NCBI RefSeq assembly: GCF_902168135.1 | Contig: NZ_CABHOL010000017.1 | Span: 186,001-250,000 of the forward strand | From: an uncultured Fluviicola sp. | Lineage (GTDB): Bacteria > Bacteroidota > Bacteroidia > Flavobacteriales_D > Crocinitomicaceae | Length of the DNA: 64,000 bases | Reading direction: 5' to 3' | Part shown: positions 35,665 to 38,413 of the stretch, piece after piece | Position numbering within the stretch: the stretch's first letter is position 1 | How the letters are laid out: every line of letters starts with the position of its first letter | The notes under the pieces: generated by a model | What the model saw: only the letters and a program-made list of their open reading frames with translations | What the model was told of the DNA's origin: nothing | The model's database searches: none | Made by a program: the position numbers and the translations under genes

Positions 35665-37563
35665 CTATTTCCCCCATCTTTCGTACCACATGAGATAAGA
35701 AAGCAGGTACCATACTTTTACTCCAAATTCCTTTCTGCCGGCTAAAAAACTCAATTTTAACCGTTCGATTTCCTTCCAGTTAAAGATCCCTGTTTCCCGC
35801 ACTTTTTCTTCCGATATATAGGTTTCCATCAAATCGCGTAATTCATGCTTTAACCAGGATTCAATCGGAATGGCAAATCCCATTTTGGGTCTGTCCATGA
35901 CGGATTTGGGGATGTATTCATGTACGATTTCTTTCAGAAGCCATTTTTTGGACCCATCCCGGAATTTCAGATCATCGGGCAATTGTGCTACGTATTCGAT
36001 AAGCCGGTGATCCAAAAGAGGTTCACGACTTTCCAAGCTTACAGACATGGAAGCACGATCGACCTTCTGAAGGATGTCATCCAGTAAGTATGTTTGATAA
36101 TCCATTGCCTGGGCAAAAGCCAGGGAACTGTAGTTTTTCAATTCTTTACTGTCGAAATAAGTACTTAGCTTTTCGAACCTTTGTGTACATATTTGATTGA
36201 TCTGCTCCTCGGTAAACAACTGGCTGACACTAAGCATGATGTTCTGATCGCTGGTATTACGCAGAATCGATTTGGTCTTTTCATAACGCTGCGCAAAATT
36301 GTATTTGTTTTTTAGCACAGGAATGGAATCCGCTGAAACCAAATCCATCACTCCTGCCACGCTTTTTCGAGCAAATCCGGGAATGCGGTTCAGTTTTTCG
36401 CCATATTTAAGGATCATCTCGTAGCGGTTGTACCCCGCAAAAACTTCGTCTCCGCCATCCGCACTTAAGGCTACAGTGACATGTTGTTTGGCAATTTTTG
36501 AAACCAAAGTAGTCGGAATTGCACTGGAATCCGCAAATGGTTCGTCATAGAAATAAGGAAGTTCAGCAATCTGGTCGATTGCCTCCTGTGCTGTACATTC
36601 CGTCTCTGTATGATTTGTTTGCAATTTTTCAGCAATTTCCCTGGCATATGGTGCTTCGTTCAAGCCTATATCCGGAACTGAAATTGTAAAAGTGCGTAAA
36701 GGTTCTGTTCTGTCTTTTTGCAGTAAGGCCGTAACGCAGGTACTGTCATATCCGCCGCTTAGAAAAACACCCACCGGAACATCTGAAACCATGCGGTATT
36801 CACAGGCAGATATTAATAGTTGTTCAGTTTCCTTTTTTGCCTCTTCCGGTGAAACAGCCAATTTTGGTTTGTTGTAATAATCATAAACATTCCAATATTG
36901 GACCGGACTGAATTTAAAATCTTTCAAGGAGGTGGAAACATAATGTCCTGGCTGCAACTTGGAACAATGCTCAAAAATACAATGAGGTGTAGGGACACTT
37001 CCATATTGAAGGTAAGCCTGTACGGCCTGCGGATTGATCTTTTTCTCAAAGTCAGGATGCTTGTGAAAAGCTTTCAATTCAGAAGCAAACAGGAACAGCC
37101 CGTTCTTATTGTAAATGAACAATGGTTTTACTCCGGCCCTGTCTCTGGCAATAAAGACGGATTCTTTTTTGGAGTCGAAAATCACAAACGAGAACATTCC
37201 GATGAAACGGTCGAGGCATTTTTCCTTCCATTCACCGTAAGCATGCAGGATCATTTCCGTATCTGACTCAGCGAGGAAAGAATGTCCCAGTTTTTCCAAT
37301 TCACTTTTAATCTCTGAAAAGTTATAGATCTCTCCGTTGAAAACAATAGTAAACTCATTCCAGGTCATGGGTTGTTTCCCCAATTCCGAAAGTTCCAGTA
37401 TGGATAACCGCCTGTGTCCTAAACCAATTTTGTAAGTAGAAGTTCCCTGGATAAATGTTCCGAATCCGTCAGGTCCGCGATGCTCAAGGGCATGTGTCAT
37501 TTCTTCCAGTTCCAGTTCCGAAGAAGCTCCGTTAAAGTCAATAAATCCTGCTATTCCGCACAT
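35665..37563 (-). CDS. asnB: Asparagine synthetase B-type (glutamine-hydrolysing)
   Basis: Makes asparagine from aspartate, glutamine and ATP, or amidates another carboxylate in specialised pathways. 632 residues. The N-terminal class II glutaminase has the nucleophile Cys2 (MCGIAGFIDFNG) and HRGPDGFG. The synthetase domain has the PP-loop FLSGGYDSTCVTAL (about residue 266) and SADGGDEVFAGYNRYE, then LDDILQKVDRASMSVSLESREPLLDHR region. It lies at the edge of the polysaccharide locus, and a second paralogue (51268) lies inside it, so the assignment as the housekeeping enzyme is likely but not proven. Confidence 0.9.
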   Translation of the reverse strand: MCGIAGFIDFNGASSELELEEMTHALEHRGPDGFGTFIQGTSTYKIGLGHRRLSILELSELGKQPMTWNEFTIVFNGEIYNFSEIKSELEKLGHSFLAESDTEMILHAYGEWKEKCLDRFIGMFSFVIFDSKKESVFIARDRAGVKPLFIYNKNGLFLFASELKAFHKHPDFEKKINPQAVQAYLQYGSVPTPHCIFEHCSKLQPGHYVSTSLKDFKFSPVQYWNVYDYYNKPKLAVSPEEAKKETEQLLISACEYRMVSDVPVGVFLSGGYDSTCVTALLQKDRTEPLRTFTISVPDIGLNEAPYAREIAEKLQTNHTETECTAQEAIDQIAELPYFYDEPFADSSAIPTTLVSKIAKQHVTVALSADGGDEVFAGYNRYEMILKYGEKLNRIPGFARKSVAGVMDLVSADSIPVLKNKYNFAQRYEKTKSILRNTSDQNIMLSVSQLFTEEQINQICTQRFEKLSTYFDSKELKNYSSLAFAQAMDYQTYLLDDILQKVDRASMSVSLESREPLLDHRLIEYVAQLPDDLKFRDGSKKWLLKEIVHEYIPKSVMDRPKMGFAIPIESWLKHELRDLMETYISEEKVRETGIFNWKEIERLKLSFLAGRKEFGVKVWYLLSYLMWYERWGK

Positions 37564-37650
37564 TCTTTGATCCTGTTTTTATCCGTGTTTTTACGGAACT
37601 AGTAAAGATATGGAAAATCCTGTAGGGGTGAAAAAAAATATCAGAGGTAC

Positions 37651-37673
37651 CTTCGACTCCGCTCAGTCACCTT
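37651..37673 (+). repeat. Left inverted repeat of the GIY-YIG unit
   Basis: Begins CTTCGACTCCGCTCAG, then TCACCTT. It lies inside a larger imperfect stem formed by 37636-37648 and 37669-37682. Confidence 0.7.
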
Positions 37674-37743
37674 CTGATATTTCTTTCAACAAGTTTGATT
37701 TCTAGCCTGAAATTTTTTATCTTAAATTAATTGAATAGTAAAT

Positions 37744-38064
37744 ATGGTTTGTTACATGTATATTTTACGTTGTTCCGATGAAAGTTATTATACTGGATGC
37801 ACAAAAGATTTAAATCGAAGATTATTCCAGCATCAAAATGGAGAAGGATCAAACCACACGAAAAAGTATGGACCTGTAGAATTGATCTATTATGAAGAGT
37901 TTGATAGGATAGATTATGCATTTAATCGTGAAAAACAAATTCAAGGATGGAGCAGGAGGAAAAAAGAGGCATTAATAGCTGGTAGAAGGTCCGATTTAAA
38001 AAAGTTTTCAGAATGTCAGAATTCAAGTCATTGTAATTTTCAAAGAGTAACAAAAGGTGGCTGA
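37744..38064 (+). CDS. GIY-YIG nuclease family protein
   Basis: 106 residues. Single GIY-YIG endonuclease domain: YMYILRCSDESYYTGCT (YIL and YTG forming the GIY-YIG strands), RRLFQHQNG, and the conserved NREKQIQGWSRRKKEALIAG with the catalytic Glu in REKQI. Members of this small family (like YhbQ/UPF0213 relatives) are standalone nucleases of uncertain role. The TGA stop (38062-38064) lies inside the right inverted repeat, and the last residues (TKGG) are encoded by it. The C-terminal tail after about residue 88 looks unconserved. Divergent from asnB, with a 180-base gap. Confidence 0.88.
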   Translation: MVCYMYILRCSDESYYTGCTKDLNRRLFQHQNGEGSNHTKKYGPVELIYYEEFDRIDYAFNREKQIQGWSRRKKEALIAGRRSDLKKFSECQNSSHCNFQRVTKGG

Positions 38065-38076
38065 GCGGAGTCGAAG
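38054..38076 (-). repeat. Right inverted repeat of the GIY-YIG unit
   Basis: On the minus strand begins CTTCGACTCCGCTCAG, then CCACCTT: one mismatch to the left copy over 23 bases. It overlaps the 3' end and stop codon of the GIY-YIG gene. Confidence 0.7.
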
Positions 38077-38176
38077 CCCCGTTGTTAACAACTCTTTTCA
38101 TAAATCAGTGAAGCCTTGCTGGGATTGAATTACAGAAACCCTTAACTTTAAAGAATCATTTTAAACCCTTCAAATA

Positions 38177-38347
38177 ATGGAAAACAAACAGAAATTACAA
38201 GAAGAAATTGCAGTGCTTGAAGCACAGTTGACGGGTGACATGTTTACAGATATGGATATCAAGGATAAAATCCACAATCTGAAAATGCAGGTAGAAGGTG
38301 TTCGTCCGATGGACAGCTACATCGAATGCGTTGGTTGCGGTTCTTAA
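38177..38347 (+). CDS. Small protein (56 aa) with C-terminal C-x-x-C motif
   Basis: ATG at 38177, TAA at 38345-38347. The sequence is a charged helix (MENKQKLQEEIAVLEAQLTG), then DMFTDMDIKDKIHNLKMQV and the end SYIECVGCGS. The predicted coiled-coil/helical hairpin followed by E-C-V-G-C-G-S at the very C-terminus looks like a conserved feature; I recall similar short proteins in Flavobacteriia, but cannot confirm. A strong terminator follows, which supports a real gene. Possible roles: metal or cofactor binding, a redox or modified peptide; none is shown. No radical SAM or maturation gene is adjacent. Confidence 0.75.
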   Translation: MENKQKLQEEIAVLEAQLTGDMFTDMDIKDKIHNLKMQVEGVRPMDSYIECVGCGS

Positions 38348-38368
38348 GAAAGAATTCAAGTCAAAACC

Positions 38369-38413
38369 AAAAAGGTGCCTGATTCCTCGTTTGATGGAAA
38401 GGCGCCTTTTTTG
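38369..38413 (+). terminator. Terminator after the C-x-x-C mini-protein gene
   Basis: AAAAAGGTGCC (38369-38379) pairs with GGCGCCTTTTT (38401-38411) with one G-T wobble; T residues follow. Confidence 0.8.

Follow-up and report, generated by a model that had tools for sequence, protein, structure and literature searches.

A standalone GIY-YIG nuclease gene between dispersed hairpin repeats: a candidate mobile cassette

Could a small nuclease encoded between two hairpin repeats be part of what spreads such repeats through bacterial genomes? The question arises from a unit in the window (the whole stretch of 64,000 nucleotides analysed here), and the layout of this unit is exactly as the original prediction described it: two inverted copies of a 23-base repeat with one mismatch between them (37651–37673 and 38054–38076), a single open reading frame (ORF) between the copies, and a TGA stop codon (38062–38064) that falls inside the right-hand copy (Table 1). 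Both repeats had also been said to sit in longer hairpins whose stems come from unrelated flanking sequence. Both do sit in longer hairpins, but the origin of the stems holds only in part, as the right hairpin has an outer stem of flanking sequence and an inner stem that is the repeat itself.

The nuclease gene, its repeats and their genomic copies

The ORF matches the Pfam GIY-YIG family PF01541 with an E-value of 1.4e-17 (64.2 bits against a cut-off of 22.6). Residues Y6, Y16, R26 and E63 are invariant, and H30 is nearly so, among 14 aligned nuclease sequences; the residues at these five positions have catalytic roles in other GIY-YIG nucleases. The product is a presumed DNA-cutting GIY-YIG enzyme. 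The nearest solved structures belong to GIY-YIG proteins of the UPF0213 type (1zg2 and 1ywl; E 1e-21 and 1e-16), for which we know of no function and whose association with repeats was not met in the literature searched. The structure-specific nuclease SLX1 matches weakly (E 0.02–0.9), and kinship with SLX1 or UPF0213 would fit an action on hairpins. The protein had no match in NCBIfam, where three of its relatives gave only sub-cut-off matches to group I intron endonucleases (E 0.004–0.007), and none in PHROGs below E 0.04. Two other identities were rejected: a known RNA family was ruled out for the unit, as Rfam gave no match at gathering score over 37400–38400, and plasmid or phage cargo was ruled out for this very nuclease, as all 58 plasmid and 24 phage records were less than 60% identical to it.

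Table 1. Features of the unit and of its neighbours, in window positions.
Feature	Position	Strand	Remarks
Left repeat (CTTCGACTCCGCTCAGTCACCTT)	37651..37673	+	Type I core CTTCGACTCCGCTCAG plus TCACCTT
Right repeat (AAGGTGGCTGAGCGGAGTCGAAG)	38054..38076	-	Contains the TGA stop of the nuclease gene
Hairpin around left repeat	37636..37682	.	Stem ATATCAGA...TCTGATAT; DNA fold z -4.4, 0/200 shuffles as stable
Weaker hairpin around right repeat	38043..38096	.	DNA fold z -2.6, 2/200 shuffles as stable
GIY-YIG nuclease gene, 106 aa	37744..38064	+	ORF and Pfam; Y6, Y16, R26, H30 and E63 present
Left neighbour, presumably asparagine synthetase-like (asnB-like), judged from its sequence	35665..37563	-	Adjoins the insertion site in relatives
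Right neighbour, gene of a conserved 56-aa small protein	38180..38347	+	Served to locate empty sites

With up to two mismatches, the 16-base core of the repeat occurs at two places in the window, both of them the repeats of the unit (100 shuffles gave an expectation of 0.01). Across the 4.38-Mb genome, it occurs 42 times at the same tolerance (22 forward and 20 reverse; none for the reversed control). The same genome has seven GIY-YIG matches, one of which has the window core within 1.5 kb (up to three mismatches). Another (L037, C17:142947-143102) has a different repeat, the 18-base palindrome TCCCGATAGCTATCGGGA, on both sides.

The near copies show a conserved asymmetric core, CTGAG-N4/5-YCGAAG, within a hairpin of varying stem (GGTGG/CCACC, GTTCC/GGAAC and others). 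At least four of five flanking pairs were found in 66% of 259 near copies, compared with 19% when the partners were shuffled. Most cores are of type I (CGNAG), II (CNTG-like) or III (GNNC). When we looked at neighbouring copies at most 250 bp apart in three genomes of the genus, all 30 pairs pointed inward with a spacing of 42–136 bp (10 pairs in G002, 16 in G008 and 4 in G000, the window's genome, covering 36/36, 67/74 and 20/42 sites, respectively). This inward-pair layout is that of REPIN elements. Two side observations concern arrays. A Chryseobacterium GIY-YIG gene (L135) lies in an array of ~90-bp units, with a second array some 5 kb off (about 9.3–10.7 kb and 14.8–15.6 kb), and the GIY-YIG ORFs of two other loci (L067 and L070) have long repetitive C-terminal tails (PQSRPE and FGFESPSTKLGNHLS) that may be translated repeat arrays.

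Repeats and their types at GIY-YIG loci

How general is the association between gene and repeat? A scan of named genomes with an alignment of 14 sequences (A1) gave 572 confirmed GIY-YIG loci, the best 80 of which were used; they came from Bacteroidota, Chloroflexota, Cyanobacteriota, Pseudomonadota, Spirochaetota, Fibrobacterota, Ignavibacteriota and Calditrichota. When the 16-mer of the window, chosen beforehand, was searched with up to two mismatches within 300 bp of each gene, it was found near 40 of these 80 loci and on both sides of 28, at a density of 2.55 per kb compared with 0.034 per kb elsewhere. The reversed core was found at none of the 80 loci, and five shuffled cores were found at 0 or 1. 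We then derived a general motif, YTGAG-N3..6-YCGAAR, from the 80 loci; it was present within 300 bp of 72 of the 80 (a count that includes copies inside the tblastn match, with L144 counted by such a copy alone) and on both sides of 47, compared with 14 of 247 control ORFs of 70–200 amino acids in the same loci. Its density was 5.5 per kb near the genes and 0.085 per kb far from them, or 0.29 per kb in far intergenic DNA. The Calditrichota locus (L142) is without the motif, and L101 has almost no downstream sequence.

Because the general motif had been drawn from the same 80 loci, it was frozen and tested on 68 further clade A Bacteroidota loci (of 70, the window itself, L179, and a locus whose protein is among the 80, L182, were dropped). 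It was present at 40 of the 68 and on both sides of 29, compared with 1 of 44 control ORFs, and at none of the first 20 loci of the more distant clade B. The other 28 held-out clade A loci were without it, and many motif-negative loci carry other repeated words. A motif-free test, which asked for an exact word of at least 13 bases common to the two 300-bp flanks, was positive at 46 of 75 loci from the best 80 of 572 (five with short flanks being left out) compared with 12 of 483 control ORFs of 70–400 amino acids, at 59 of the 68 held-out clade A loci compared with 1 of 66, and at 13 of the first 20 clade B loci compared with 2 of 34. These results, checked against held-out loci, a motif-free test and RAYT loci (for the last, see below), bear out the predicted enrichment of repeats at GIY-YIG genes. 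Furthermore, the best words common to the two flanks were more often direct than inverted (32 vs 14, 42 vs 17 and 10 vs 3), which indicates that whole repeat pairs tend to recur on either side of the gene.

Does the repeat follow the enzyme or the host? A typed core was present at 70 of the best 80 loci, eight of them mixed. When the labels I, II, III and none were placed on the nuclease tree, 21 changes were needed compared with 37.2 after shuffling, and none of 200 shuffles gave a number as low; in this tree, support is good for 15 of the 77 inner branches, and part of the clustering of labels comes from near-copies. Two genomes each have two nucleases with different repeat types, namely Winogradskyella ouciana (type I at L138, type II at L175) and Bacteroidetes C4.bin.5 (type I at L099, type III at L155). 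Among the 80 and 68 loci together, diverged nucleases within one genome had a flank 12-mer in common in 4 of 16 pairs (not counting one pair that is 96% identical), whereas between genomes such sharing rose from 18% at less than 45% protein identity to 42% at 75–90%. All of this argues that the repeat type goes with the nuclease lineage and not with the host genome.

Empty sites and candidate movers

If the unit is mobile, close relatives should differ in its presence. The gene of the 56-amino-acid protein was detected in 17 of 40 genomes, the window's own included, and the window's genome was compared by alignment with eight relatives; in seven of the eight, the asnB-like gene lies next door, and none of the seven carries the unit. 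The nearest relative (G002, locus L038) has a perfect hairpin of its own, TCCTGTAGGGGTGAAAAATTTTTCACCCCTACAGGA, at the empty site. In the window's genome, ~30 bases of the G002-type hairpin are gone and the unit stands in their place, with no target duplication visible at the insertion. Both outcomes that had been named as speaking against the original prediction, namely repeats not enriched near GIY-YIG genes and no close relative lacking the unit at this locus, were looked at, and the data came out the opposite way. The G002 hairpin itself is possibly a member of another repeat family.

The repeats without a gene also differ between these two genomes. G002 has an inward doublet of 82 bp (L309), whereas the window's genome runs uninterrupted through the orthologous position (L325) without it. 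Of 11 more G002 repeat sites, seven were alignable and the core was missing at all seven. Several of these seven sites hold other sequence, sometimes another repeat. As G002 is 84% complete and 85–99% identical to the window's genome over shared stretches, the differences show turnover without its direction. Places in the window's genome opposite G002 doublets (L332, L347 and L331) hold other sequence such as GCTTGCGCC palindromes and a tandem AAGCTTTTGATGATGTCAAGCG array. Elsewhere, the unit is kept at one orthologous place in four Winogradskyella genomes (L117, L119, L138 and L140), and synteny was broken at the Chryseobacterium locus that was compared for an empty site.

A second insertion interrupts an operon. 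In Azospirillum lipoferum 4B, sufB and sufC are separated by a GIY-YIG gene, which has an inverted pair of CGTC repeats (a class taken up in the last section) on each side. The sufB–sufC gap is 617 bp in A. lipoferum and 55–129 bp in A. ramasamyi, A. oryzae, A. sp. B510 and A. thermophilum, where neither a GIY-YIG gene nor, on inspection by eye, a CGTC repeat is present. The simplest reading is that gene and repeats arrived together at this site. Shinella sp. PSBB067 also has a GIY-YIG gene inside its sufB–sufC match, apparently from a separate insertion at the same place. The gap looks like a hot spot, as in Sphingomonas parapaucimobilis it contains a DUF559 protein.

The association of gene and repeat, the specificity of types, the geometry of the pairs, the presence or absence of units at orthologous places and their occurrence across phyla are all observed. 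We infer that the nuclease recognises and cleaves its repeats and that repair copies them, and we consider it fairly probable that the unit is a small mobile cassette of this kind. Such a cassette would consist of a standalone GIY-YIG gene with one or more dispersed hairpin repeats on each side, often in inward pairs. The nuclease would recognise a hairpin repeat of its own type and cut the DNA there, and repair of the break would copy repeats, and sometimes the whole repeat–gene–repeat unit, to new intergenic places. Most repeats in a genome would be non-autonomous copies, and the nuclease gene would be gained by horizontal transfer and often lost.

Could the gene instead be a homing parasite that targets repeats spread by something else and rides in by repair? 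We hold this to be unlikely, although several genomes fit it. The repeats are present in many genomes without the nuclease: G060 has 164 exact type I cores with no match to the nuclease alignment or to Y1 transposases, and G002 has 36 copies with no close relative of the window nuclease (best E 3e-10). In counts tallied by hand, at least five type I copies were found in 26 of 69 genomes with a clade A nuclease (E up to 1e-31) compared with 35 of 323 without one; within the well-sampled family f17, on the other hand, the figures were 10 of 20 and 13 of 25. We do not count the genome-wide correlation as support because it is gone within this family. The original proposal that the nuclease may spread or maintain the repeats is supported in part, over a wider field than first proposed: the enrichment and the empty sites fit it, but maintenance is not borne out in f17, where repeat presence does not track the nuclease. 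The repeats may have a further agent of spread, or they may carry the nuclease as a rider. In two f17 genomes, GIY-YIG matches broken by stop codons have type I cores beside them (G226:C1:267365-267625 with three stops and G431:C37:74884-75114 with one). These are possibly decayed nuclease copies, and their presence in 2 of the 13 f17 genomes that lack a clade A match agrees with a burst that was followed by loss of the nuclease.

The matching of repeat type to nuclease lineage fits a homing parasite equally well. However, the relatives lack that repeat at two empty sites, those of the window unit and of Azospirillum, so gene and repeats most simply arrived together. The repeats beside the gene also look intact and are not visibly split by it, as seen in the near copies listed and in the Azospirillum unit, and the core shows no association with RAYTs, which are the other known movers.

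Less probable still, to the point of being doubtful, is an SLX1-like house-cleaning enzyme that cuts repeat hairpins or cruciforms and is kept for genome stability, not for spread. The repeats do form hairpins, and the UPF0213 and SLX1 matches point the same way, but a patchy distribution among phyla and an insertion that interrupts an operon look like mobile DNA, and such a gene need not adjoin its substrate. It is very improbable that the association is passive, with small intergenic genes on variable DNA gathering repeats of all kinds. It is true that intergenic sites show turnover between G000 and G002 and that other repeats occupy some of them, but control ORFs of the same loci rarely have repeats, and the repeat type follows the nuclease lineage. 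Finally, that RAYT (Y1) transposases move these repeats, as is thought for GTAG REPs, is scarcely credible and was rejected: although the window's genome has two Y1 genes and Y1 genes occur in 145 of the 198 genomes searched in the phylum, the window core (up to three mismatches) was not found within 1.5 kb of either gene, and the CTGAG..CGAAG motif was found at none of the 30 best RAYT loci, 14 of which do share words of at least 13 bases between their flanks.

How does the cassette reading compare with known systems? Like REP or REPIN elements with their RAYTs (REPtrons), the present system has short, dispersed, multicopy hairpins, inward pairs and an enzyme gene flanked by repeats. Unlike them, the window enzyme is GIY-YIG and not Y1 (HUH), and the one insertion that reads well, that of the window, replaced sequence. 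Both window repeats also lack the GTAG tag, a REP feature according to PMC3733652. With neither a RAYT nor a GTAG tag, two of the defining features, we do not file the unit as REP/RAYT; the analogy that had been proposed, a similar arrangement with a different enzyme class, is supported. The other likeness is to homing enzymes of phage T4, where the Seg proteins are free-standing GIY-YIG homing endonucleases and I-TevI is intron-encoded. They share with the present unit a GIY-YIG domain, a mobile gene and a probable spread by break and repair, whereas Seg and I-TevI home to an allelic site, and we know of no dispersed hairpins flanking them.

CGTC-tagged repeats around more distant GIY-YIG genes

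Is the association limited to one repeat family? As described in PMC3733652, CGTC REPs have a CGTC, TGTC or CCTC tag, a stem of 8–9 bp starting with AT and mostly a CCA tail, are reported from five phyla, including Neisseria dRS3 and Rickettsia RPE-4/RPE-6, and were judged in that 2013 paper to be apparently without a dedicated transposase; the word GIY-YIG does not occur in the paper. Using a strict structural motif taken from its description, we found a CGTC REP within 400 bp of 12 of 22 GIY-YIG loci, on both sides of nine, compared with 5 of 88 control ORFs, at a density of 2.22 per kb near and 0.109 per kb far. To obtain variety, we selected the 22 loci by hand from plasmid-collection records of alpha-, beta- and gammaproteobacteria and others; they are partly dependent (three Sphingobium, three Shinella of which two share a locus, and two from one S. 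meliloti record). The first eight, chosen before the motif was tried, gave 3/8 compared with 0/24 control ORFs, and the next 14, found with two of the first eight proteins as queries, gave 9/14. The positive loci were two of S. meliloti, that of Azospirillum lipoferum, three of Shinella, two of Rhizobium and one each of Neorhizobium, Aeromonas, Photobacterium and N. gonorrhoeae, whose GIY-YIG gene is surrounded by nine copies of the dRS3 form. Eight of the ten misses were viewed by eye (all except Planktothrix and Spirosoma): four had CGTC-like variants on both sides, two had another hairpin family on both sides, one had a type I doublet upstream and one had nothing that we could see.

The flanks of clade B genes resemble CGTC REPs. 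The strict motif was found at none of the first 20 clade B Bacteroidota loci, and a relaxed stem was present at 13 of these 20, which had shaped it, compared with 7 of 29 controls. On 20 new clade B Bacteroidota loci, the relaxed motif was present at 15, on both sides of 13, compared with 1 of 33 controls, and four sham tags gave 0, 0, 3 and 1 of 20; the motif-free test was positive at 18 of the 20 compared with 1 of 39 control ORFs. In clade A, the relaxed form was present at 13 of 68 loci compared with 3 of 52 controls, which is not clearly above chance, and the strict motif was present at 3 of the 68 held-out loci. The window repeats, with their core of CTGAG-N4/5-YCGAAG, have no CGTC, TGTC or CCTC tag with an AT-starting stem of 8–9 bp. 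The window's repeat is no CGTC REP, whereas those around many of its more distant relatives are, with look-alikes at clade B genes.

A major class of bacterial repeats has lacked a machinery for its dispersal, and a GIY-YIG enzyme is a strong candidate for that role. The chances seem to us evenly balanced that the CGTC REPs (dRS3, RPE-4/6) and the CTGAG..CGAAG families of Bacteroidota, Chloroflexota, Cyanobacteriota and others, together a large part of bacterial dispersed hairpins, form one non-autonomous superfamily moved by standalone GIY-YIG nucleases, each lineage reading its own repeat, as a second REP-type class beside REP/RAYT. There is a real chance that GIY-YIG genes and their repeats are a class of their own beside the systems of REP plus enzyme. 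No link of standalone GIY-YIG genes to these repeat classes was found in the open-access literature searched, at the level of listings and abstract openings. With a specific and widespread candidate, the question of the repeat mover becomes directly testable on a ~100-residue protein and a ~30-base substrate. If the cassette reading is true, it would add a new class of REP-moving enzyme, supply natural matched nuclease–target pairs for studies of GIY-YIG specificity and explain repeats seen across many phyla. As a minor observation among the 22 loci, the GIY-YIG gene of a Planktothrix plasmid (L410, 4989–5273), which has no CGTC motif within 400 bp, lies between an MmeI-type restriction enzyme and the DISARM gene drmA.
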